From a virus: a DNA stretch of 43,799 nt. Both the position numbers and the translations under genes were made by a program. The stretch is from positions 1 to 43,799 of IMG/VR virus record IMGVR_UViG_3300025684_000022. One strand, written 5' to 3'. The notes beneath the pieces are model-generated. The model made no database searches, was not told the DNA's origin, and saw only the letters and a list, made by a program, of their open reading frames with translations. This document shows, in pieces, positions 4,393 through 43,059 of the stretch. Numbering within the stretch: the stretch's first letter is position 1; the number at the start of each line of letters is the position of its first letter.

Positions 4393-5043
4393 TTAAAACT
4401 TATTCATTATTTCAATTAGTTGACCGTTGTTGCTCATTTGATATCCAGAACATGTTAAACCAATTGTATCATAATTAGTTCCAGTAGATACATCAAACAT
4501 AATCCCACCATCAGATGAGTTGTATTGATCTAATACAAACATTAGTTCATATATTTCTTGGAACATTTTATCTTTAATTTTACTATCAATTCCACTACCA
4601 CATGTTACTGCAATTAAATAGTTTCTTCTTCCTCCTGGATTAAAGTTTGCTCTACCTTCGATTTCTCCACCAACAGTTGATCTCATTGTACCTGACCATC
4701 CACCTGCTGCAGGAACTGAAGATTGTTCAATTTCATATTTCTTATATTTTTTAATTACTTTAGAAATCTTTTCAGCTAATTGAACTGAATTCCTTCCTTG
4801 AAATATATCATATGAATCTTGTGTAATATCTCCTTGAACATTTAAATGTTCTTTATAGCTTGGTAATTTACCAGATTTTGCAGCGGCTTCAGCCTTTGCT
4901 AATACATTTTCATAAGAACCTCCCCATTTGTCAACAGCTATTTTAGCAATTCTAACCTTGTCTTCTAGTTTAGCCTTAATTCCTTTTTTACCAAATTGAA
5001 CCGATTCATTTAAGAACTGTTCAAATAATTCTACTTTTTTCAT
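4393..5043 (-). CDS. Protein with capsid-targeting-like N-terminus, 216 aa
   Basis: Family not recognised. It begins MKKVELFEQFLNE followed by Ser, one of the cleanest examples of the shared N-terminal motif; the predicted cut is after Glu13. Residues 14-110 are Lys-rich and helical. The C-terminal half is Gly/Ser-rich with likely beta strands (around GGWSGTMRSTVGGE and the Asp/Ser-rich stretch near 180). There is no membrane segment. It lies between the ligase/NMNAT fusion and the KTDG ligase-like gene with gaps of 12 and 3 nt, so it was probably expressed with them. A packaged protein is inferred from the motif and its company. Confidence 0.65.
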   Translation of the reverse strand: MKKVELFEQFLNESVQFGKKGIKAKLEDKVRIAKIAVDKWGGSYENVLAKAEAAAKSGKLPSYKEHLNVQGDITQDSYDIFQGRNSVQLAEKISKVIKKYKKYEIEQSSVPAAGGWSGTMRSTVGGEIEGRANFNPGGRRNYLIAVTCGSGIDSKIKDKMFQEIYELMFVLDQYNSSDGGIMFDVSTGTNYDTIGLTCSGYQMSNNGQLIEIMNKF

Positions 5044-8028: not shown

Positions 8029-8610
8029 TTATTTGATGAACATATTTAATTCGTATTTCCATCCATTTCTGCCGTAGATTCGAACATGTATCGCTTTACG
8101 CTGTTCTTTTCCTTTTTTATATAGAGTTAATGTATCTTTTTTATATTCTCCTTCTCTAGCCTTAAAGGGTGCATCAACAAATTTATTATCATATTCCTCC
8201 TTGTCCAATTCATATCCCATCTTATTGACATATTTCTCAACCTCATCAATTACTGTTGAGAAATGCTTGTGATAGACTTGAAAATATTTAGATCGATCGT
8301 CCTCTTCTTTCCAGTCGTCAGCCCATGTATCTTTACTACGGTAAGGATTAGCTCCTCTTGACATCATAAGGTCAAAGATTTCTTTTTTCGCTTTTTTATA
8401 ATCAGTATCTTTATATCCGTCAAGTTCTTCTTCAGGTGCAATTGCAATTACCATGTCAGTTGCATGTTTATACAATTTGTGTAATTCATCATTATCCATT
8501 TTATCACTAAACGTATATGGATTTTTCTTAGATTTTTTTACGCTAATTTTAATTGGTTTTAATTGGTTTGCTTCTCCAATAAATTGCTCAAATAATTTAA
8601 TGTGTTTCAT
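8029..8610 (-). CDS. Protein with capsid-targeting-like N-terminus, 193 aa
   Basis: Family not recognised. The frame stays open 17 codons further upstream, but the ATG at 8608-8610 gives MKHIKLFEQFIGE followed by Ala, an almost exact match to the cassette motif and to T4 MKTYQEFIAE/A, so I use that start. The predicted mature chain (from Ala14) is highly charged, Lys- and Asp-rich, mostly helical, with a basic C-terminal strand region. A candidate late promoter lies 33 nt before the start codon, so this may be the first gene of the cassette transcript that runs to the left window edge. Head packaging is inferred. Confidence 0.68.
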   Translation of the reverse strand: MKHIKLFEQFIGEANQLKPIKISVKKSKKNPYTFSDKMDNDELHKLYKHATDMVIAIAPEEELDGYKDTDYKKAKKEIFDLMMSRGANPYRSKDTWADDWKEEDDRSKYFQVYHKHFSTVIDEVEKYVNKMGYELDKEEYDNKFVDAPFKAREGEYKKDTLTLYKKGKEQRKAIHVRIYGRNGWKYELNMFIK

Positions 8611-13885: not shown

Positions 13886-14260
13886 TTAAATTCTTTTACC
13901 CATTGCAGCACCAAGAGCGGCACCAACTAATCTGGAAGTTAATAAATCGTAAAAAATACCTTGTTGAATTCCTAAAACTTTAGCAATAACTTTTCCAACT
14001 GATTTACCTAATGCAAATCCAGCTAAACCACCTATAATAGAACCTAAGATGCCTTCATTAGTCATCTCTTCATTTAACCTATCTAAATCATAAGTCCCAT
14101 CCTCTCTTTTATACTCAGCTTCAAATGTTTCAATGGCAGCATCTATTTGAGCTTCTAATTCAGGAGTCCACTCTTCTTGTAAACCCTCTTTAATTAAAGA
14201 ATAGTCCTGCTCGCTAATTTCGTTTTCTACTAAATAGTCGTTAAATGTTTTCATATTCAT
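13886..14260 (-). CDS. Glycine-zipper protein with capsid-targeting-like N-terminus, 124 aa
   Basis: The N-terminus MNMKTFNDYLVE/N matches the head-targeting motif of the 1-8610 cassette; an ATG two codons in (14252-14254) would give MKTFNDYLVE, closest to T4 MKTYQEFIAE. Residues 13-69 are very acidic. LIKE25/Gly and EMTNE69/Gly are further candidate protease sites; a cut after Glu69 would release a hydrophobic, Gly-rich segment (GILGSIIGGLAGFALGK, then VGAALGAAMG near the C-terminus) with glycine-zipper spacing, likely to enter membranes. An acidic pro-region masking a membrane-active peptide is a reasonable reading. It lies apart from the main cassette, between the tail block and the RuvC-like gene. 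Function is inferred. Confidence 0.65.
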   Translation of the reverse strand: MNMKTFNDYLVENEISEQDYSLIKEGLQEEWTPELEAQIDAAIETFEAEYKREDGTYDLDRLNEEMTNEGILGSIIGGLAGFALGKSVGKVIAKVLGIQQGIFYDLLTSRLVGAALGAAMGKRI

Positions 14261-33849: not shown

Positions 33850-36648
33850 TTATTTTACTTTTATCATATTACGTTTTACAACGTTTTTATTTCCATATGT
33901 GTCTTCAGCATTTAACTCAATTGAGTAGAATCCCGGCTCCTTAAAAATATAAGTCAACCACATATTATTATAGTATATATCATCATTTGCTGGGTTAGTT
34001 GCATGTTTAATATTCCATGTCGGGTTTTTTAAGCCTGGCATTTTAGAACTATCCACTGCAATTGTTACGTGGGTTGATCTTTCTACTTCTGCAAAGTCTT
34101 TAAAAACTCTAGTATCATCAAATGTTGGATTGTAATGTATTACGTGTTGTAAGCCCTCAGTTATATATGTAGGATTTAAATCTCCAGGTGCCTGAAATGA
34201 TACAGAATTAAAATCATAATTCTTAGAATACTCTTTACCAACTGCTAAAATATAGTAAAAGGTTTCACCAGTACCATCATTATCAATATCGTAAAAAACA
34301 GGATTATAATTAAATTTACTAATAATAGGGTCGGCTGATGCGTTTAATTCATCTGCAATAGTTTGCCAAGCAATAATATCTAAAGTACTTGCTGGAGTTG
34401 GTGATGTAATAGTTATTGTACCAACGTTTACTGCATTACTAGTAGGATCTATATGTTCTATTTTTAAAACAGTCCCATTAACAATATTTTCTATTTTAAA
34501 AGAAGCAGTTTGGTCCGGTCCAATTCTAGTAGAATCCCAAGAAAGATTTTTTGTATCAAACCACCTATATGAAGATTCTTCCCATCTATAAGGACCTGTT
34601 GTTTCACTAAATCCAGTCTCACTATAAATATCCTGATACCTTCGTACTGTAGAAAATCTAATTCCCTGGCTTTCATCATGTTGGTAATTAGCTCTATCTA
34701 ATGTTAAATATAGAGCCGCTATATGCTCATCAACAGTAGTATTATTATTTTGTGGATTGTTCCAATACCCACCAGACTTATTCCAATCTAATATTTTATC
34801 GTTCCATGTAAACGATTCTAGCCACTTATAAATTCCATATAACTCTATGTCCTTTAGATTAACTTCTATTAAATCACCCATCCTATAATGAGACCTATGT
34901 CCAAATAAATCATAAGTTCTCATTTCAACATCATATGCACCATTGTGTGGTAAAAAAATAGGAAGCCTTAAGTAATCGTCAATCGGTCCTCTAAAACTTT
35001 GATTGTAACCTTTGTCACCAGTAACAATCCATTCTACTTCATATACCCATCTTTTCCACCAGTCATTCCATGTTATACCTGAGTGTAATTGTACAGTTCC
35101 ATTAGGTACTGGAGCGATTCCAGTTGGGTCTGCATCTTCCCATGTAAATAGTGCCTCATCCCAAATATCATCAAACGTAGGTGTTCCATTAAGTATAACA
35201 GGACATCCTACTGGAGTGCCTTCATTCCAGGTCTCTAAAGTTCTATCATGATAATTTTCATAGAATGCATCTACGATATCTCTTAGCTCAGTTATTTCAG
35301 CAGAGGTAAGAGTAGAATAATCTAGATCTCGGTAATTTAAAAACTTTACATAATTAGTAGCAGCATCATTTTGATCTAATACATTACCAATTACAAGTGC
35401 CATATCTTCAATAAAGATTGCTCTTTCTTCTTGGTCAATTTTAAATTCAATATCATGACCCTCACTAAAATAAGAAACAACATTTTGAGTATTCCACACA
35501 TTAATATTCTTTTGTGTAAAATAATCACCCTCTGCTGTAATGTCAATAATTTTAGCATTAAGGGGTAAAAAATCTAATTGTAATTTATTCTTTAATCCGT
35601 ATAATTTAAGTAAGACTTCTTCTGGTGTAAAATCAAAAATTTCAGTTACGTTAGGAATATCCCATTCATCATAAGTTCCATTGGGCTCATTGAGCCTATA
35701 GACAAGACTAAACTTACTAGTCTTCTTCATTGTCTTAGATGGAGTTTGAATAGTCCTCTTTTTTCTAATCATTTCACCCCTAACCGAAGAGTTAGGAACT
35801 GGCACTGCATGTAGCTTGCCGAAATTACTACCAGTTGAATCTACATTTAACCAATACTCTTTTAATGTAATATTATTATAACCAAAAAAGTCAATAGCAT
35901 TTAAGATTGCCTTATACGTACCGACAAACGGCTTAATATTATGTAGCTCTAATAAGAGTTCCTTTCTTTTCTGGTTTAATAAAATATTATCTGGTGACAT
36001 TTCAGATAGGTCATGTTCTTTAAATAAAAGAAAATCACCCTCGTTTAATGAGGCACCAAAGTTTTGTAAAAGTACTTTTAATCTTTCATCTTCAGCAACA
36101 ACCTCACCGTAACATAGAATAGAAGCTACTCGTGTCTTTGTAGATCCAGTTTTTGCGTAAACATACAAAGTTCTTCGATGTGCTCCTTCAATATCAGATT
36201 TAATAGCAATATTAACCTGGAGTGCTGATGTATTATTTTTAGAATCATTAATAATATAATAACCATCTGCATTTACACTATCAACATCATTAAAATCACC
36301 TAATTCAATTTCAACTGTTGCATTTTCTGTAACAAGCGGTAGACCATCTTTAATATCCGCACTGTACATAAAAATATCAGTACTTTCATTAGGTAGTCTA
36401 TCTGCCCATTCAAAACAAAATGTAGTTGAAGCACTAGATTCAGATCTAGGATAGTTAAATGTAAAATCATTTCTATGAATAACCTCTTCTAGTATAAATA
36501 TATTAGAAGTTTCATAGAGGCCAGTAGATACTTCGTCTAAAAATAAATTACCATACAAAAAATTACCATATGTTGCCCCTAAGTCACGAGGTACTAGGTT
36601 TAAATCATTTTCAGTATCTTTAAAAAATCTTAAATTATTATAGGCCAT
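33850..36648 (-). CDS. Baseplate wedge protein candidate (gp7-like position), 932 aa
   Basis: The gene follows gp25, gp6 and a 93-aa protein, where T4 has gp7 (1032 aa). Residues about 225-265 (QKRKELLLELHNIKPFVGTYKAILNAI split here as KRKELLLEL and GTYKAILNAIDFFGY) resemble the phage tail protein I helical motif of wedge proteins. Residues about 535-600 and 850-930 look like Ig/PKD-type beta domains (DVEMRTYDLFGHRS; FYSIELNAEDTYGNKN). Many Trp and Tyr residues are present. Its start overlaps the stop of the 93-aa gene in a TAATG arrangement, indicating translational coupling. The gp7 link is by position and layout, not by clear similarity. Confidence 0.5.
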   Translation of the reverse strand: MAYNNLRFFKDTENDLNLVPRDLGATYGNFLYGNLFLDEVSTGLYETSNIFILEEVIHRNDFTFNYPRSESSASTTFCFEWADRLPNESTDIFMYSADIKDGLPLVTENATVEIELGDFNDVDSVNADGYYIINDSKNNTSALQVNIAIKSDIEGAHRRTLYVYAKTGSTKTRVASILCYGEVVAEDERLKVLLQNFGASLNEGDFLLFKEHDLSEMSPDNILLNQKRKELLLELHNIKPFVGTYKAILNAIDFFGYNNITLKEYWLNVDSTGSNFGKLHAVPVPNSSVRGEMIRKKRTIQTPSKTMKKTSKFSLVYRLNEPNGTYDEWDIPNVTEIFDFTPEEVLLKLYGLKNKLQLDFLPLNAKIIDITAEGDYFTQKNINVWNTQNVVSYFSEGHDIEFKIDQEERAIFIEDMALVIGNVLDQNDAATNYVKFLNYRDLDYSTLTSAEITELRDIVDAFYENYHDRTLETWNEGTPVGCPVILNGTPTFDDIWDEALFTWEDADPTGIAPVPNGTVQLHSGITWNDWWKRWVYEVEWIVTGDKGYNQSFRGPIDDYLRLPIFLPHNGAYDVEMRTYDLFGHRSHYRMGDLIEVNLKDIELYGIYKWLESFTWNDKILDWNKSGGYWNNPQNNNTTVDEHIAALYLTLDRANYQHDESQGIRFSTVRRYQDIYSETGFSETTGPYRWEESSYRWFDTKNLSWDSTRIGPDQTASFKIENIVNGTVLKIEHIDPTSNAVNVGTITITSPTPASTLDIIAWQTIADELNASADPIISKFNYNPVFYDIDNDGTGETFYYILAVGKEYSKNYDFNSVSFQAPGDLNPTYITEGLQHVIHYNPTFDDTRVFKDFAEVERSTHVTIAVDSSKMPGLKNPTWNIKHATNPANDDIYYNNMWLTYIFKEPGFYSIELNAEDTYGNKNVVKRNMIKVK

Positions 36649-36929
36649 TATCTAACGTTTATATCGTCTTTTTTAGTAGTATAATTCTTATAGTTTTTTA
36701 AGAACGCAGGTCCCTTTAAAATATCAGATAGTGCCAGATCTATAATAGAAATAAAACCTGAAAGTATTTCACTTCTTAAAATAAAGGAAGATATAGAATT
36801 ACTTAAGATGCCAATTAAACCCCTAGGAATACCGGTGTTTAAGCGCTGGTCTTTTCTAACTCTAGCCGCCTCATAAAGCTTACTACCTGTAGCTGCATTC
36901 GCTATCGTTCTATCAGAATTCTTCTTCAT
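36648..36929 (-). CDS. Small protein between gp6 and the wedge candidate, 93 aa
   Basis: Not recognised. The N-terminal third is basic and polar (NAATGSKLYEAARVRKDQR); a hydrophobic, possibly amphipathic helical stretch follows (LIGILSNSISSFILR, then GFISIIDLALSDIL); the C-terminus is Lys-rich. Start and stop each overlap the neighbouring genes by one base in TAATG junctions, so its translation is coupled to gp6 and to the wedge candidate. That suggests a stoichiometric small baseplate component. Confidence 0.55.
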   Translation of the reverse strand: MKKNSDRTIANAATGSKLYEAARVRKDQRLNTGIPRGLIGILSNSISSFILRSEILSGFISIIDLALSDILKGPAFLKNYKNYTTKKDDINVR

Positions 36930-38761
36930 TATCTAAGTGCTTTTCTATTTCCGGCCTGAACTCTAGTATAAATAGTTCTAGGCACTGGCTTTTCATCAAA
37001 ATTAATACTTAATGCAGCTTCCCTATTTATGTCAACACCATCGGGGATCATATCACCATCTCTATCTTCCCAGCCACCTCTAAATACTGCAACCTCTTCT
37101 TTCTCCATAATAATGTCGCCCCATTGGTCTAATCCAGCAATATCTTCTGGAATTACTGAGTTAGCATCAACATTTACTATGTTCACCGTTTCTAACTTTT
37201 TAAAGAACACATATTTTTGTTTACCATTTCCTATCTCTTCTAATAATACAGGCTCTTGTGGTTGCACTTGTGTTGTGATTGATTCATAGTAACCAAGCCT
37301 TCTAGCTCTTTCTTCAGTTTCAGAAATAAATCTAACATTTACTGAATCAATACCTTCTATTTCTTCTAAGATATAAATAATATCAGATTTAGGTAATTTA
37401 TCTCTTCTTGTTATATTTAATAAGTAATCAGAAACAACAGCCGTAACATCACTAGAAATATCTGCCGTACTAAATCCTTCAAAATATCTAATATCAATAT
37501 CCATTGAATATTTTCTAATCTTTGGTTTTACAAAATTAACTTCCGTTGTTACCATCATTTGACCAGAGTCTTCTAATACCTTTAGCATTGCATCATACTC
37601 TTCTTGTTGAAAAAACATCTCATTTTGCGGTATTGAAAAATAATCGCCACCTTTAGAAACTTTTTTCTTAATGTCTGGTACTGCAAAAATATAAATAACG
37701 TTATCATCATCTAAATACTGGTCGTCAGTTCTATTGTAAGCGTCAATATAAGAGAATATAGCATATCTAGAAAGAAAGTATTCATAATTATCTGGAGTTG
37801 CCAGTACGAAGCTCTTAGAGGCCATAGGAGTTAATATCTTTGTAAAGTCAATAGATTCTCTATTAGCTCCCATCTTTGGCGAAGAAGTTACTTCAACCAT
37901 TAATAAATCATCAAGGTTATGTAGTGTACCTGTTGAATCTTCACCTTCAACTTTCCATTTAACTTTTAATTCACCAGAGTCATTAAGATTCCCTTGTACA
38001 CCTTTATGTTTTAAATACTCTACTTCTATGATTGCACCAGTTTGTGGAATTGCTCCAAAATTAGAGTTTCCAAAATAAATATCTAGTCCCCCAGATATTC
38101 CTGTTTTAATTAAATAGCCTTTTTCATCCGGTAATAAGTCATATAAAGATTCATGCTTAGTCCATAATTCACCATTAACACTAAGTGAAACTCTATTATG
38201 GTCTGTTAACGAGCTACCAGTTTTACAATTAAAAGATTGCATTGCTGTACCAGAACTAGTAAACGTTTGTCTCTCAAAAACACCTTGTACAATACTACAT
38301 GTAGTCCAATCTTTATTTAATGTTGAAATTCTAAATGCATCTTTAGAAGTTAATAAGGTATAAAAAAGCCCGTTTGATTCAAACTCAAGCTCGGCTCTAC
38401 CGTCTATTGTTAATCCAGTTCCTGCAATTGATTGTAAGTCAGCACTTGGATTCCACTTAAATCTAATTTCACCAAATGCAGCATAACCCCTAGTAGCGTC
38501 ATGTCCGGTTAATCTAGACATTCCATAAATAGATTCTGGATGTTGAGCTGTATAAATATTTTGCTCAACTAAAGCGTCTTCAATATAAAACATAATAAGC
38601 TCAGTGATTTCAGATAAAACTGTAACAATTTGAGCAAACGGAGATGCTGCCGTAAATAACGTACCAGCTCTTTTATATGCCGATATAATATAATCACGGG
38701 CATCCTCTCTAATTTTATTAGAAGTAATCCTTAGTGTATTTAAAAACTTTTGTTCAGCCAT
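36929..38761 (-). CDS. Baseplate wedge protein gp6-like
   Basis: This 610-aa protein resembles T4 gp6 (660 aa) and its relatives, the dimer-forming ring that joins the wedges of the contractile baseplate (the J protein of simpler phages). The N-terminus is helical (DYIISAYKRAGTLF, IVTVLSEITELIMFYIEDAL), as in the gp6 family, followed by beta domains and a C-terminal J-like part with YSMDIDIRYFEGF and the ligand-facing SDIIYILEEIEGIDSVNVRF. It lies 23 nt after the gp25 gene; gp25 and gp6 bind each other in the wedge core, supporting the call. Confidence 0.72.
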   Translation of the reverse strand: MAEQKFLNTLRITSNKIREDARDYIISAYKRAGTLFTAASPFAQIVTVLSEITELIMFYIEDALVEQNIYTAQHPESIYGMSRLTGHDATRGYAAFGEIRFKWNPSADLQSIAGTGLTIDGRAELEFESNGLFYTLLTSKDAFRISTLNKDWTTCSIVQGVFERQTFTSSGTAMQSFNCKTGSSLTDHNRVSLSVNGELWTKHESLYDLLPDEKGYLIKTGISGGLDIYFGNSNFGAIPQTGAIIEVEYLKHKGVQGNLNDSGELKVKWKVEGEDSTGTLHNLDDLLMVEVTSSPKMGANRESIDFTKILTPMASKSFVLATPDNYEYFLSRYAIFSYIDAYNRTDDQYLDDDNVIYIFAVPDIKKKVSKGGDYFSIPQNEMFFQQEEYDAMLKVLEDSGQMMVTTEVNFVKPKIRKYSMDIDIRYFEGFSTADISSDVTAVVSDYLLNITRRDKLPKSDIIYILEEIEGIDSVNVRFISETEERARRLGYYESITTQVQPQEPVLLEEIGNGKQKYVFFKKLETVNIVNVDANSVIPEDIAGLDQWGDIIMEKEEVAVFRGGWEDRDGDMIPDGVDINREAALSINFDEKPVPRTIYTRVQAGNRKALR

Positions 38762-38784
38762 TTTGTATTCTTATAATTTATGTA

Positions 38785-39138
38785 CTATGTACGGATAGAG
38801 ACTTCATATTTATTATCTATCTTAATATCAATATATCCAATATCTCTTGCATTACCCCTTTCAAAAGAAACATCAATTGTAACTTTGTGTTTATTTGATA
38901 ATGGGCAATATGCATTTAATTGGTTCCTTATTTGTTTTTTAATTTTATATTCGGCAAAACCAAACGTATATATCATATCTCCTAGATTACATCCAAACCC
39001 AGGAAGACCCAAAACATCGCCCCTTCTAGTAAATAGAATAGTCTCAATTTGAGTAATTAACTGTTGTACCTCATCCTCAATGTGTACTTTATCCCTGTCA
39101 AAATTTGGGTCGCCATCGACTTTAATATAGATCTCCAT
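38785..39138 (-). CDS. Baseplate wedge protein gp25
   Basis: The 117-aa protein has the gp25/GpW (lysozyme-like) fold signature: VHIEDEVQQLITQIETILFTRRGDVLGLP in the first half (shown in parts: QQLITQIETILFTRRGD), then GFGCNLGDMIYTF, an IKKQIRNQLNAYCP helix and a basic strand region with YIDIKIDNKYEVSI. Length is close to T4 gp25 (132 aa). It initiates sheath attachment and binds gp6. It directly precedes the gp6 gene, the standard order in contractile systems. Confidence 0.88.
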   Translation of the reverse strand: MEIYIKVDGDPNFDRDKVHIEDEVQQLITQIETILFTRRGDVLGLPGFGCNLGDMIYTFGFAEYKIKKQIRNQLNAYCPLSNKHKVTIDVSFERGNARDIGYIDIKIDNKYEVSIRT

Positions 39139-39156: not shown

Positions 39157-40023
39157 TTATGAGTGCATCATCCAATCGACACCTTCATCTCCTTTAATTT
39201 CTTCTTCAATTACAGAAAGTTCTTCATCACCCATATCTTTTATAGCTCCATAATCAAATTCAACATTACCAGGCATTGCAAATTTAAAGATACCTAATTT
39301 TGCACCAAGTGATTGTTTAATCTTAGCACTTACATATCTAAAGAATAGCTCGTCGCTGTATAAAGCACAGTCATGGATTGTTTCATAAACTTCTAATATT
39401 ACGTCACCCTTTGGAGTATCCCCCATGATTTTTAAATCACCGGTTAATTGAGAATAATGAAATGAGATAGGATTTTCTAGAATCTGTCTAGATAAATCTG
39501 CTAAAGAAGCATTAAGAACATAATATTGTAATTCTTCAGCAGCATCAGCAGCACCAGCACCATCATACATTCTTCTAAATAACATTCTTTCCATAGAAAA
39601 GTCAGATCCGCTTTGAAATCTTTTATCCATGCCACTACCAACACCATTCCAACCCGACGCAAGGTCATATAATCCATATACAGAATAGACTTGGCCACCC
39701 AAATCTTTCTTAAGCCCGGCTACATCACTAGAACCTGCGTTTGGCAGTGTTAACGTCCTATGCTTCTTAAAATATTCAGTTTCAAATATCTCATGTGGTA
39801 TATGATAATAATTCTCTTTAACTGAGTACTCATACTTTTTATACATCCACTTTTTAGCCCTCTTAATAATATTAATGACCTCTTTTTGTGGTAACTGTAT
39901 TGGAATCATACAGGCTCCAGAAATATCATCTGCAATTTCGCTAAGAAATTCATTTAAACAATTTGTACCAAAATCTCTTGGCGTGTTTAAACTACCTTCA
40001 TTTCCACTTCTAATTTCACTCAT
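39157..40023 (-). CDS. Neck protein candidate (gp13-like), 288 aa
   Basis: The layout matches neck proteins of T4-type marine phages: an N-terminal helix (KEVINIIKRAKKWMYKKYEYS), a strand pair with RTLTLPNAGSS and QVYSVYGLYDLA, a central helical part, and a C-terminal RYVSAKIKQSLGAKLGIFKF leading to AMPGNVEFDYGAIKDMGDEEL and an acidic helix. Neck proteins seal the head-tail joint. Residue-level similarity could not be verified, and a connector or baseplate role remains possible. It lies between the amidoligase-like gene and gp25. Confidence 0.5.
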   Translation of the reverse strand: MSEIRSGNEGSLNTPRDFGTNCLNEFLSEIADDISGACMIPIQLPQKEVINIIKRAKKWMYKKYEYSVKENYYHIPHEIFETEYFKKHRTLTLPNAGSSDVAGLKKDLGGQVYSVYGLYDLASGWNGVGSGMDKRFQSGSDFSMERMLFRRMYDGAGAADAAEELQYYVLNASLADLSRQILENPISFHYSQLTGDLKIMGDTPKGDVILEVYETIHDCALYSDELFFRYVSAKIKQSLGAKLGIFKFAMPGNVEFDYGAIKDMGDEELSVIEEEIKGDEGVDWMMHS

Positions 40024-40035
40024 TTTATTTTATTT

Positions 40036-41343
40036 TTATTTTATTTTTGTACTTACTACTATTTCAGTATCTTCAAATCTAGCAGTATTACTTTTAAAGC
40101 CTTCTCTAAATATACCCCCAATCATTTTACCTTTAAAGATTCCATCTCTACCAAAGACATAACAATTAGTCACCTCACAGCTACCATGAACATAAGAAGA
40201 TTCAATCTTAGATTCACGCACTTCAGTCGATCTATAAAAATCACATCTTATTAAATTAGCTCCTTTAACAGTGCATCCATATAAATTAGACGTTTCAATA
40301 TTACCGGCTAATTCACAATCTATAAAATCATAACCTTCTAATAAATAACAGATTCCAAACTTACCATCTTTAACCTGTACCTTTCCTATGTCGCTGTCAT
40401 AATTAATCTTACCCGAGGTCATACCACCATTAACAATTAAGTCTATTACCTTTTTTTTGATTTTAGCCCATTGTAATTGTATAATTTGCTCATGTTCCTG
40501 TAGGTCTACCATAAGAGTAATTTCAGGCCAGTATTTATTGATATTTTTCCAATCTTTAGCACTCTCTATTATTGGTAAATTCTTGTTAAGAATCTTTCTA
40601 AGCTCAATCTTATTCTCTTCAGTAAAAAGAGGGCTATTACAAGAATTCCACATTTGCATCAAAAACATTTCAGAAAGATAAAAAATATTATCAGCTTTCT
40701 TTTCGTAATCAGCACCACCCAAATATCTAAACTCTAAATAATTGCTTTCTTTTTTAGAAAAGTTAATTCCATAATATTTAGTGTCTGCAAATTTATAACT
40801 CATTGACGAAATATTACTTCCATCAAAGAAATAAGCTTCATCTTTAGGCATAATCCATTTTATGCTTTTGGCATAAACTGACTTCTCTCTACCTGGAAAG
40901 AATTTGTAAACTTGTGCTTCGTTAAAATCAAGAATAAACTTTAAGACATTCATCTTAGAAATCATTGCAGGATCCTCTAAGTATTTTTTATCAAATGAAA
41001 GATTAATATGTATAGAAGCTCTATCATTAGTATAACCATTCTCTTTAATCCAATTTAAAACATTAGAAATCATAATTCTAGCGTTTCTATATGGAAGTGG
41101 TCCTGTTACTAATTCTGTTAAGCCCTTACCACCAGACATATCTGGCTCTAATTTAAACTCATCAGCAGATGGTTGAAAATCAGAATGTGCTTTATCTTCA
41201 AGCCTAATAGGTCGGCCTAGGAGCTTACTCAATGATTTTTGAGTCTCTTCTAGGCCGATATTAGAGTAGAATTCGAACTCGACACCTACTAGCGCTGCGT
41301 TCAGTACTGAGTTACGATCTGAATTCTTATTTAATTTTTGCAT
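40036..41343 (-). CDS. Amidoligase-like enzyme fused to a C-terminal beta-helix, 435 aa
   Basis: Residues 19-25 (VGVEFEF) and 75-83 (LTELVTGPL), followed by NDRASIHINLSF (106-117) and NYLEFRYLGG (about 205-214), fit the amidoligase family (glutamine-synthetase-like fold, COOH-NH2 ligases), whose members join a carboxyl to an amine using ATP. The Glu residues of VEFEF and the His112 region fit its metal and substrate sites. Residues about 340-425 have pentapeptide-like periodicity (YDFIDCELAGNIETSNLYG; GANLIRCDFYRST), a right-handed beta-helix. Such an enzyme could attach amino acids or peptides to proteins or cell-wall components. It sits between the S1 gene and the neck candidate, so a virion link is possible but unproven. 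Confidence 0.65.
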   Translation of the reverse strand: MQKLNKNSDRNSVLNAALVGVEFEFYSNIGLEETQKSLSKLLGRPIRLEDKAHSDFQPSADEFKLEPDMSGGKGLTELVTGPLPYRNARIMISNVLNWIKENGYTNDRASIHINLSFDKKYLEDPAMISKMNVLKFILDFNEAQVYKFFPGREKSVYAKSIKWIMPKDEAYFFDGSNISSMSYKFADTKYYGINFSKKESNYLEFRYLGGADYEKKADNIFYLSEMFLMQMWNSCNSPLFTEENKIELRKILNKNLPIIESAKDWKNINKYWPEITLMVDLQEHEQIIQLQWAKIKKKVIDLIVNGGMTSGKINYDSDIGKVQVKDGKFGICYLLEGYDFIDCELAGNIETSNLYGCTVKGANLIRCDFYRSTEVRESKIESSYVHGSCEVTNCYVFGRDGIFKGKMIGGIFREGFKSNTARFEDTEIVVSTKIK

Positions 41344-41366: not shown

Positions 41367-41376
41367 AATATATATC
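41367..41376 (-). promoter_or_regulatory. Variant of the late-promoter element
   Basis: The minus strand reads GATATATATT in the 54-nt gap before the amidoligase-like gene, 23 nt from its start. Eight of ten bases match the GATATATAAT element. It may serve the amidoligase gene and the neck and baseplate genes after it. Confidence 0.4.
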
Positions 41377-41397: not shown

Positions 41398-42678
41398 TTA
41401 TGGCATCTTTAAAAATACCTTTTTACTCTCTGTATCAATTCTTGTAATCTGAACTGTAATTTTATCACCACTATTAAAGACGTCTATTAAGCCATCTTCA
41501 AGTTCACTAACATGTAACAAACCGGTGACTCCATCTTCAATGTTTACAAATAAACCATACTCTTTTTTCGTCTTAATGATAGCCTCAATCGTAGATGGAA
41601 TTTGATATCTTGTACTAATATCATTCCATGGGTTAGATACTATATTATCTTTTTGAGTTAATGTAATCTTAGTATTAGAAACAATATCTTTTACTTTAAA
41701 TGTAATTGCATCACCTGGTTTAATATCTCTAGATTTAAACAACCCTGAAGTCGCGTCGTCTAGATCATTAATGTGAATCATACCAGTAAGACATTTATTA
41801 AATTCTACAAAGACACCATATCTAGCAGTACCAGTAACATTACCAGTATATTCAACACCCTCGTTATCCTTAATAGACTGAATTTCTGTTGGAATTAATG
41901 CTTGTAAATATTTTCTATGGGATACCACAATCGTGCCTCTATCTGAAGAGAAGCTTACCGGTACCACATAAATTTCAGTACCAATAATAGATTCAAAGTC
42001 ATGGAGTTTATTAATTCCAGCAAGTGAACCTGGCATAAAACATTCTACGCCTTGTACTTCTATAATATAACCACCGTTCTCAATCATATTTTTAACAGTA
42101 CCAACCCAAGCAGTATTACCTTCTTCAACACCTGCTCTTAGGTCTAGGAATACTTTATGCCTTACACCACCTGATATTGAACCAAGTACATGTGTGTTAT
42201 TTTTATTAGAAGTAATTAAAACAGCAGTTTCTTCACCTGGTTGTAATGCTTTAACAAGAGCAGTCTCTTTATCATACTTAACATAGATTAGTTCTCTATA
42301 TCCAATATCGACTGAAATAAATTCTTGACTTACAGCAAAGATCTTGCCCTCATAGATAGAACCTTCTGTGATTAATGGCAATACAGGATTTTGCCTATCC
42401 ATCTCCTCCATTAAATCATAAAGTTCTTGAGCATAAGATTCTCTCGAATATACTTTATCTCCTTTTTTAGTCTTAATGTGTGGGTTTGGTTTTCTGGTTT
42501 TAGAAGGACATGTGGCCTCGTAAGCATCCCACATGAATTCACCATTTTCATCGTAAAAGCTCTGTTCAGTTTCTGGAGCTTGTTCTTTAACTTCGATTTG
42601 CGGTTCTGGAAGTTTATCAACCGTTTTGTCTAGGGTTACCGTAGTAATTCTAGGTCTTTTGTTTTTTTCGTTGTTCAT
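41398..42678 (-). CDS. Ribosomal-protein-S1-like RNA-binding protein, 426 aa
   Basis: Four S1 (OB-fold) repeats follow an acidic N-terminal region of about 100 residues: about 105-175 (GSIYEGKIFAVSQEFISVDI), 185-262 (WVGTVKNMIENGGYIIEV), 272-345 (YTGNVTGTARYGVFVEF, GMIHINDL) and 360-426 (IEAIIKTKKEYGLFVNI, GLLHVSELED). The last two carry the typical G-x-F-V and G-h-h-H-x-S/N-x-L signatures. Cellular S1 has four to six repeats and holds mRNA on the 30S subunit. A phage copy could favour translation of its own leaders, which lack Shine-Dalgarno sequences. It ends 54 nt before the amidoligase-like gene and has a candidate late promoter 26 nt upstream. Confidence 0.8.
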   Translation of the reverse strand: MNNEKNKRPRITTVTLDKTVDKLPEPQIEVKEQAPETEQSFYDENGEFMWDAYEATCPSKTRKPNPHIKTKKGDKVYSRESYAQELYDLMEEMDRQNPVLPLITEGSIYEGKIFAVSQEFISVDIGYRELIYVKYDKETALVKALQPGEETAVLITSNKNNTHVLGSISGGVRHKVFLDLRAGVEEGNTAWVGTVKNMIENGGYIIEVQGVECFMPGSLAGINKLHDFESIIGTEIYVVPVSFSSDRGTIVVSHRKYLQALIPTEIQSIKDNEGVEYTGNVTGTARYGVFVEFNKCLTGMIHINDLDDATSGLFKSRDIKPGDAITFKVKDIVSNTKITLTQKDNIVSNPWNDISTRYQIPSTIEAIIKTKKEYGLFVNIEDGVTGLLHVSELEDGLIDVFNSGDKITVQITRIDTESKKVFLKMP

Positions 42679-42715: not shown

Positions 42716-42837
42716 ACTTTCTTTTCTATTATGGGAGCATTGGCTTCTACAAAAAATAATTGCCAAATAATTTTTTTATGTCAAATAAAATGATTATATT
42801 AGTACTGTAATTAAACACAAACAAAAAACTAAAAGTT

Positions 42838-43059
42838 ATGTCAACAGAATTAAAATCATTAAAAGGTCAATTTCACAGTCAAAAGACAAACGAAATGGAA
42901 AACACTGAAATGTCATTGACAAGATTCAGTGGAGGTAAAGAGGGTATGAAACTTCAATTAACAATGAGAGAGCAAGGAGACTTCTTTACTCATATCACCC
43001 TTAACACAGAAGAACTTAGAACTTTAGTTAAGGAAATCCAAGAGAACTTCGAATTATAA
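42838..43059 (+). CDS. Small protein of unknown function, 73 aa, only plus-strand gene
   Basis: Not recognised. The product is charged, with a FSGGKEGMKLQLTMRE strand region, an HITLNTEELRTL stretch and a C-terminal acidic helix. It is preceded by an A-rich leader (AAACTAAAAGTT) without Shine-Dalgarno, as for the minus-strand genes. Its gene is divergent from the S1-like gene and convergent with the gene at 43117, so it needs its own promoter in the 159-nt A/T-rich gap; none is clear. An early or regulatory gene would fit, but this is inference. Confidence 0.65.
   Translation: MSTELKSLKGQFHSQKTNEMENTEMSLTRFSGGKEGMKLQLTMREQGDFFTHITLNTEELRTLVKEIQENFEL

Follow-up and report, generated by a model that had tools for sequence, protein, structure and literature searches.

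What does a phage gain from encoding its own protein of the ribosomal S1 type? We analyzed a 43,799-nt stretch of viral DNA (IMG/VR record IMGVR_UViG_3300025684_000022), here named the window, that carries a gene for an S1-like protein. The initial annotation, made from the sequence, noted that almost all genes of the window have A/T-rich leaders without a Shine-Dalgarno (SD) sequence, and speculated that the phage may supply an S1-type factor to steer host ribosomes to its mRNAs, or may use the protein to bind RNA for another purpose. Ribosome specialization by phages is an open question, and the window belongs to a widespread lineage in which S1 looks like a core gene with intact docking domains and a putative late promoter, and in which most of the long related records contain a gene for bS21. 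Purified ribosomes, bS1 and initiation assays exist for Flavobacterium johnsoniae, so that the claim is directly testable.

That a phage S1 may act in initiation was already proposed for huge phages, which have S1 proteins of up to six domains and rarely any SDs; the protein was envisaged to work either on or off the ribosome (Al-Shayeb et al. 2020, PMC7162821). In 2019 Mizuno et al., who left S1 out of account as ambiguous, showed that phage bS21 and bL12 enter ribosomes (PMC6375957), and the term "ribosomal protein S1" is absent from the 2022 paper on phage bS21 (PMC9723584). In the open-access literature we found no report of S1 being core to the lineage studied here; the "Moraphages" (PMC12619734) may be relatives of it.

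Domain composition of the S1-like protein

The four S1 repeats described in the initial annotation were recovered by HMMs of the bS1 domains and as four OB-like beta sets in an AlphaFold model (Table 1). The Pfam S1 family scored above its cut-off (E 6.6e-22), with two stretches individually significant, and phmmer aligned residues 20-344 of E. coli bS1 to residues 105-423 of the window protein (E 2e-50). The bS1 domain HMMs assigned a D1-type domain to residues 103-161, a D2-type domain to 192-260 and D4/D5-type domains to 274-353 and 356-423. The AlphaFold model (pLDDT 74.3, pTM 0.45), for which 22 family members were used, shows four OB-like folds as well as a helix spanning residues 83-96; its top fold match in the PDB is bS1 in the 30S mRNA-delivery complex (E 5e-27), its whole-chain TM-scores being low because of flexible linkers. 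A PDB search with the N-terminal 155 residues returned nothing useful, and PHROGs gave no S1 family match for the protein. The best NCBIfam models were all bS1 (rpsA) models or fusions, with scores below the bS1 equivalog cut-offs (158.5 vs 524 bits and 142.7 vs 577 bits).

Table 1. Features of the S1 locus in window coordinates
Feature	Position	Strand	Basis or remark
S1-like gene, 426 aa, four OB/S1 domains	41398..42678	-	ATG start
Late promoter motif GATATATAA	42706..42714	-	begins 36 nt upstream of the S1 ATG
FMWDAYE motif, residues 48-54, Bacteroidia bS1-like (FxWDAYE)	42517..42537	-	F48 and W50 invariant in 22/22
Phage-specific RKPNPHIK segment, residues 62-69	42472..42495	-	R62, N65, P66 and H67 invariant in 22/22
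Helix YAQELYDLMEE, residues ~82-96, candidate uS2-anchoring	42391..42435	-	Y82, A83 and Q84 invariant; helix 83-96 in model
OB1, bS1 D1-type, residues 106-176	42151..42363	-	best match in 22/22
OB1 loop DIGYR, residues 124-128, counterpart of E. coli Asp39-Lys43	42295..42309	-	alignment to E. coli bS1
OB2, bS1 D2-type, residues 187-260	41899..42120	-	best match in 22/22
OB3, D5-like RNA-binding domain, residues 272-345	41644..41865	-	bS1 domain HMMs
OB4, D4/D5-like RNA-binding domain, residues 356-426	41401..41613	-	bS1 domain HMMs
orf435, conserved downstream gene	40036..41343	-	synteny; own GATATATA at 41376
Neck/head-tail adaptor gene	39157..40023	-	PHROG 211
Baseplate wedge genes, gp25-like and gp6-like	36929..39138	-	family matches and synteny

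S1 domains also occur in proteins other than bS1, and the domain types were used to tell these apart. HMMs for D1 to D6 were made from 32 bacterial bS1 proteins, each split by domain, and the four phage folds were scored in the 22 family members. The best match of fold 1 was D1 and that of fold 2 was D2 in every member (22/22 each); fold 3 matched D5 best in 22/22, and fold 4 matched either D4 (12 members) or D5 (10 members). As controls we took two Polaribacter S1 proteins, presumed to be Tex and PNPase from their length and the position of S1, which reached 29-54 bits with D3-D5 and stayed at or below 9.5 bits with D1 and below 1 bit with D2, compared with 17.3 bits (D1) and 37.5 bits (D2) for the window protein. 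D1 and D2 are the ribosome-docking domains of E. coli bS1 (PMC10123108), and the number of domains in bacterial bS1 varies from one to six (PMC6705787). Searches of Pfam, PHROGs and NCBIfam revealed only S1-type matches, with no catalytic or other large domain joined to them; a PNPase-, Tex- or RNase R-type protein was ruled out by the presence of the D1 and D2 types and the absence of a catalytic domain. With D1 followed by D2 in all 22 members and the controls failing, we therefore assign the protein, as judged by its domain types, to the ribosomal S1 (bS1) lineage and not to other S1-domain proteins. The S1-type factor of the initial annotation thus finds support, as the protein is of bS1 type with its docking domains in order and no link to non-ribosomal S1 proteins appeared.

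Ancestry of the viral S1

A tree of 61 rows was built over D1-D3 (nine from the window family, five huge-phage S1s and 47 bacterial bS1s; Lak proteins were left out and one truncated row, L159, was dropped beforehand). Records LR756500-504 and LR745206 are presumed here to be huge-phage records of Al-Shayeb et al. 2020. The window family grouped with the five huge-phage S1s in a single 14-row clade (100/100), set apart from all 47 bacterial bS1s by a branch of length 3.9, in a tree for which the program warned of long branches. Grouping with the bS1 of Bacteroidia was neither rejected nor established (p-AU 0.36). A genome scan with two phage-type patterns gave 25 matches, none of which was confirmed as a bacterial carrier. 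The separate clade and the lack of a bacterial carrier by these patterns argue against recent capture of a host gene, and by this evidence the window S1 is an old viral bS1. We did not file it as bS1 proper because of the missed equivalog score and its position outside the bacterial tree; given the long branch, the task of the viral S1 may have changed relative to that of bacterial bS1.

The huge-phage S1s resemble the window protein in being phage-encoded S1 repeats from SD-less genomes with Bacteroidota hosts, besides the common clade. The window lineage differs in its records of at most ~210 kb, its four full OB folds and its fixed place in a structural-gene cluster. The proteins of Lak phages, which infect Prevotella, have an N-terminus of the form W...KV[YF]S.ESYAQ.LYD in common with the window family, but, as read by eye, no recognizable D1 and an acidic tail end. 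With the bS1 of Bacteroidia the window protein shares D1 and D2 in order, D4/D5-type folds, the FxWD motif and a basic residue at the Lys43 position; unlike it, it has four instead of six OB folds, an extra NPHIK segment, 22-30% identity and a separate clade. The jumbo cyanophage PhiMa05 also carries a bS1, which according to its description in 2026 was acquired from Vampirovibrio-like bacteria (PMC13157829).

N-terminal region and candidate docking features

In E. coli, bS1 binds uS2 through Phe5 and Phe9 of its N-terminal helix and through Asp39 and Lys43 of D1; the two phenylalanines are essential for this interaction and the salt bridges less important (PMC10123108, PMC4288201). The positions of Asp39, Leu42 and Lys43 are taken in the phage family by D124, Y127 and R128, which are invariant in 22/22 members, and position 87 of the helix is Y or F in 22/22. 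Because the helix aromatics are five residues apart in the phage family vs four in E. coli bS1, homology of the phage helix to the uS2-binding helix is plausible at most. The RKPNPHIK segment was not seen in the bacterial bS1s compared.

A GxFxW sequence lies upstream of the helix in all 22 family proteins. Among the best 80 of 596 matched bacterial bS1 stretches, ranked by likeness to the query in a way that favors the FxW motif, F[DNSAE]W occurred upstream of D1 in 55/57 Bacteroidota-labelled loci and in 0/23 others. Among 61 genomes drawn evenly from the GTDB phylum, 15 carried FxW (none of the 30 best-scoring, 14 of the other 30, and the centre genome G016), so that the motif marks a subset of Bacteroidota and was rejected as a mark of the whole phylum. 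The named carriers are Bacteroidales, Flavobacteriales and Cyclobacteriaceae. Together with the Lak-related N-terminus and bS21, the motif points to a host among the Bacteroidia. The hosts of the lineage are probably marine and of Flavobacteria type.

Compared with a 93% identical relative (L008), dN/dS was 0.11 overall, 0.034 in OB1 and 0.015 in OB2; with more distant relatives it rose to as much as 0.267 in OB1 (L034) and stayed at or below 0.10 in OB2. OB2 is thus the most constrained part of the protein, and OB1 ranks among the most constrained domains in some comparisons and not in others.

Conserved locus and promoter class

The neck gene was used as an S1-independent probe of IMG/VR, and the best 80 of 202 loci were inspected, many of them close relatives or contigs already present in our earlier set of relatives. 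S1 was found upstream of the neck gene in 76/76 evaluable loci, the contig ending first in the other four; "evaluable" means at least 2.9 kb of upstream sequence or S1 found, a definition that leans slightly towards presence. The order orf226-S1-orf435-neck-gp25-gp6 is kept as far as each contig reaches, and in one locus S1 and orf435 are broken into several reading frames. S1 therefore looks like a core gene of this phage lineage. Pfam, PHROGs and NCBIfam yielded no family for the adjacent orf435, the C-terminal half of which looks repeat-like by eye.

Of 33 distinct relatives that could be evaluated, 32 have the motif GATATATA at a distance of 33-53 nt upstream of S1, the sole miss (L064) having a doubtful start and one locus (L082) being open-ended. 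In a related record of 178.7 kb (G001), 29 of 33 copies of GATATATA lie 8-120 nt upstream of a gene on the same strand, a zone that covers 6.3% of positions. When ten G001 genes behind the motif were scanned, four belonged to capsid, head protease, sheath or tube families; the other six comprised one family of unknown function with a weak match to the terminase small subunit (E 0.00097), one other unknown family and four genes without a match. As its promoter is common to capsid and tail genes, S1 is placed under a structural-gene, late-type promoter, and late expression is predicted from the motif. The late promoter proposed in the initial annotation thus stands as a late-type promoter in the form GATATATAA, and not in the T4 form TATAAATA, which was at chance and was rejected (0 vs 0.28 expected in the window, 3 vs 3.5 expected in G001).

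In G001 (loci L251-L259), 15 genes are preceded, at 17 sites, by another promoter-like motif, (G)CTTATATTAG. Ten genes behind it were scanned, with matches to a DnaB-like helicase, an exonuclease and a sigma factor, which are early-type genes, and to a nucleotidase among others. The sigma factor (PHROG 1740; L259:4013-4612, + strand) is a candidate reader of the GATATATAA late promoters. In the window, (G)CTTATATTAGTA occurs at 42794 (+), ahead of a small ORF (42838-43059, +) that faces away from S1.

Several other genes of the window (8029-8610, 4393-5043, 206-2113 and 13886-14260, all on the - strand) encode a start of the form MK-x(2-3)-FExF(I/L)xE, which resembles the capsid-targeting N-terminus of T4 ipI-ipIII. 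A loose MKxxxFExF-type pattern, which also catches gp32 and some others, is present in 5/31 window genes, 18/200 genes of G001 and 10/84 of a second related record (G012), and such N-termini suggest a large set of packaged internal proteins.

Leaders without Shine-Dalgarno sequences and the bS21 genes

We searched for SDs (GGAGG, AGGAG or GAGGT at -20 to -4) and found 0/31 in the window genes (0.15 or 0.35 expected in two separate estimates), 1/200 in G001 (1.2 expected) and 0/84 in G012 (0.3 expected), vs 12/54 in T4 as a positive control (1.6 expected). The leaders, which are ~53% A, are thus without SDs beyond chance in all three records, as had been described for the window. The exception made for gp32, whose leader ends in AAAAGGAATT, did not hold, since one SD-like 4-mer in 31 genes (1.25 expected) is not above chance. 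Nor can the leaders serve as evidence for a role of S1, because Cellulophaga phage phi14:2 is equally SD-less (0/53) although nowhere in its record is a protein with an S1 domain encoded.

Bacteroidota hosts do not use SDs (PMC9976891, PMC6847099), the anti-SD being occluded in their ribosomes (PMC9976891), and initiation in F. johnsoniae is favored by upstream adenines (PMC6847099). Taken with the S1-less phi14:2, the occluded anti-SD and the adenine preference lead us to regard SD-less leaders as a host-type trait; host phylum confounds the pairing of absent SDs with a phage S1, and the SD-less genome that the window has in common with the huge-phage S1s is not diagnostic, as it is also found in an S1-less Bacteroidota phage. 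D4 of bS1 has been placed near nt -12 to -15 (PMC6847099), and F. johnsoniae bS1 raises initiation on SD-less mRNA about twofold (PMC9976891). That bS1 could read A-rich, SD-less leaders is a reasonable proposal.

Of 15 long related viral records, 11 carry a bS21 gene, as do 4 of 7 records of huge phages or Lak phages; the 43.8-kb window has none. The aligned phage bS21 proteins keep a tyrosine at F. johnsoniae position 54, already reported in other phage bS21 (PMC9723584). The 11 phage bS21 copies examined (L091-L101) have no SD, the best pairing being -0.5 kcal/mol, vs 7/25 host rpsU genes (L349-L373) at -8 or stronger; these copies represent three distinct proteins with two leader types, a small and non-independent sample. 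Without a strong SD, phage bS21 genes may escape the autoregulation by host bS21. A GATATATA copy upstream of bS21 in G001 was not accepted as its late promoter. The gene end just upstream of bS21 in G001 (~36100-36220) reads by eye like a DnaJ C-terminus. Phage-encoded bS21 (PMC9723584, PMC6375957) is a different protein from phage S1, and parallels it as a ribosomal protein homologue of Bacteroidota myoviruses with late expression, which for S1 is predicted, and a proposed substitution into host ribosomes.

Proposed role of the phage S1

The mechanism that we consider most likely, and hold with moderate confidence, is late docking of a phage variant of bS1 on host 30S subunits. Made late in infection, the four-domain phage S1 would dock on the platform of the host 30S subunit, by analogy on uS2 and beside bS21, through its N-terminal motif, its aromatic helix and its D1-D2 pair. 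The two D4/D5-type folds would then bind A-rich, unstructured leaders at about nt -12 to -15, and the phage S1 would thereby assist initiation on late phage mRNAs, which are abundant. In this it would probably compete with host bS1 or take its place; related phages would also make bS21, which neighbors bS1 where the mRNA leaves the subunit. We observed the order of the domains, the ancestry that their types indicate, the constraint on the protein, its core-gene status, the class of its promoter and the bS21 genes of related records, and from them we infer docking, replacement of host bS1 and preference for phage mRNAs. Against this reading count the low NCBIfam scores, the long branch of the viral clade, the helix spacing unlike that of E. 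coli, the variable constraint on OB1, the SD-less leaders of a phage that has no S1 and the lack of a bS21 gene in the window. Since its own S1 stands under a promoter common to particle genes, the virus probably re-tools host ribosomes late in infection. A tentative extension, which we find possible and more doubtful than the docking itself, is a late "phage ribosome", in which phage S1 and bS21, the latter from a gene without a strong autoregulation-linked SD, would together remodel the Bacteroidota 30S subunit at its mRNA exit, tuned to A-rich leaders.

The same features can be read in other ways. The position outside all bacterial bS1s and the phage-specific NPHIK segment would suit an RNA-binding protein working off the ribosome in late-mRNA protection, in RNase regulation or as a partner of RNA polymerase or replication, comparable to host bS1 in RegB activation and in Q-beta replicase; such roles of bS1 are known (PMC13157829), and "on or off the ribosome" was left open by Al-Shayeb et al. 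(PMC7162821). We regard this as unlikely, as D1-D2 and the docking loop are kept, OB2 is the part under the strongest constraint and no catalytic domain has been added according to Pfam, PHROGs and NCBIfam. Slightly less likely still is a function in host shut-off, by which phage S1 would take the uS2 site, bar host bS1 and cut host initiation, with A-rich, unstructured phage mRNAs needing little bS1 and the RNA-binding half being secondary. A fragment of E. coli S1 (residues 1-106) does bind ribosomes and apparently abolishes binding of native S1 (PMC4288201), and the phage protein keeps D1-D2 with a smaller number of C-terminal OB folds than our reference, a Bacteroidia bS1 of six domains; however, OB3 and OB4 are conserved, full-length and constrained, which would be needless in a mere plug, and the late promoter would be late for a shut-off factor.

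Its fixed place upstream of orf435-neck-gp25-gp6 and its structural-gene promoter could also mean that S1, with its neck and baseplate neighbors, is packaged or structural. This we hold to be improbable, because all four folds match bS1 and the protein does not have the MKxxxFExF-type N-terminus found, with the loose pattern, in window genes and in T4 internal proteins. Docking on host 30S subunits thus remains our preferred reading.

Two database entries with bS1 genes were noted in passing. MT835643.1 (L090, "Bacteriophage sp.") carries a full six-domain Bacteroides-type bS1, and "Acinetobacter phage MD-2021a" carries rpsA among host genes; both are probably bacterial contamination.
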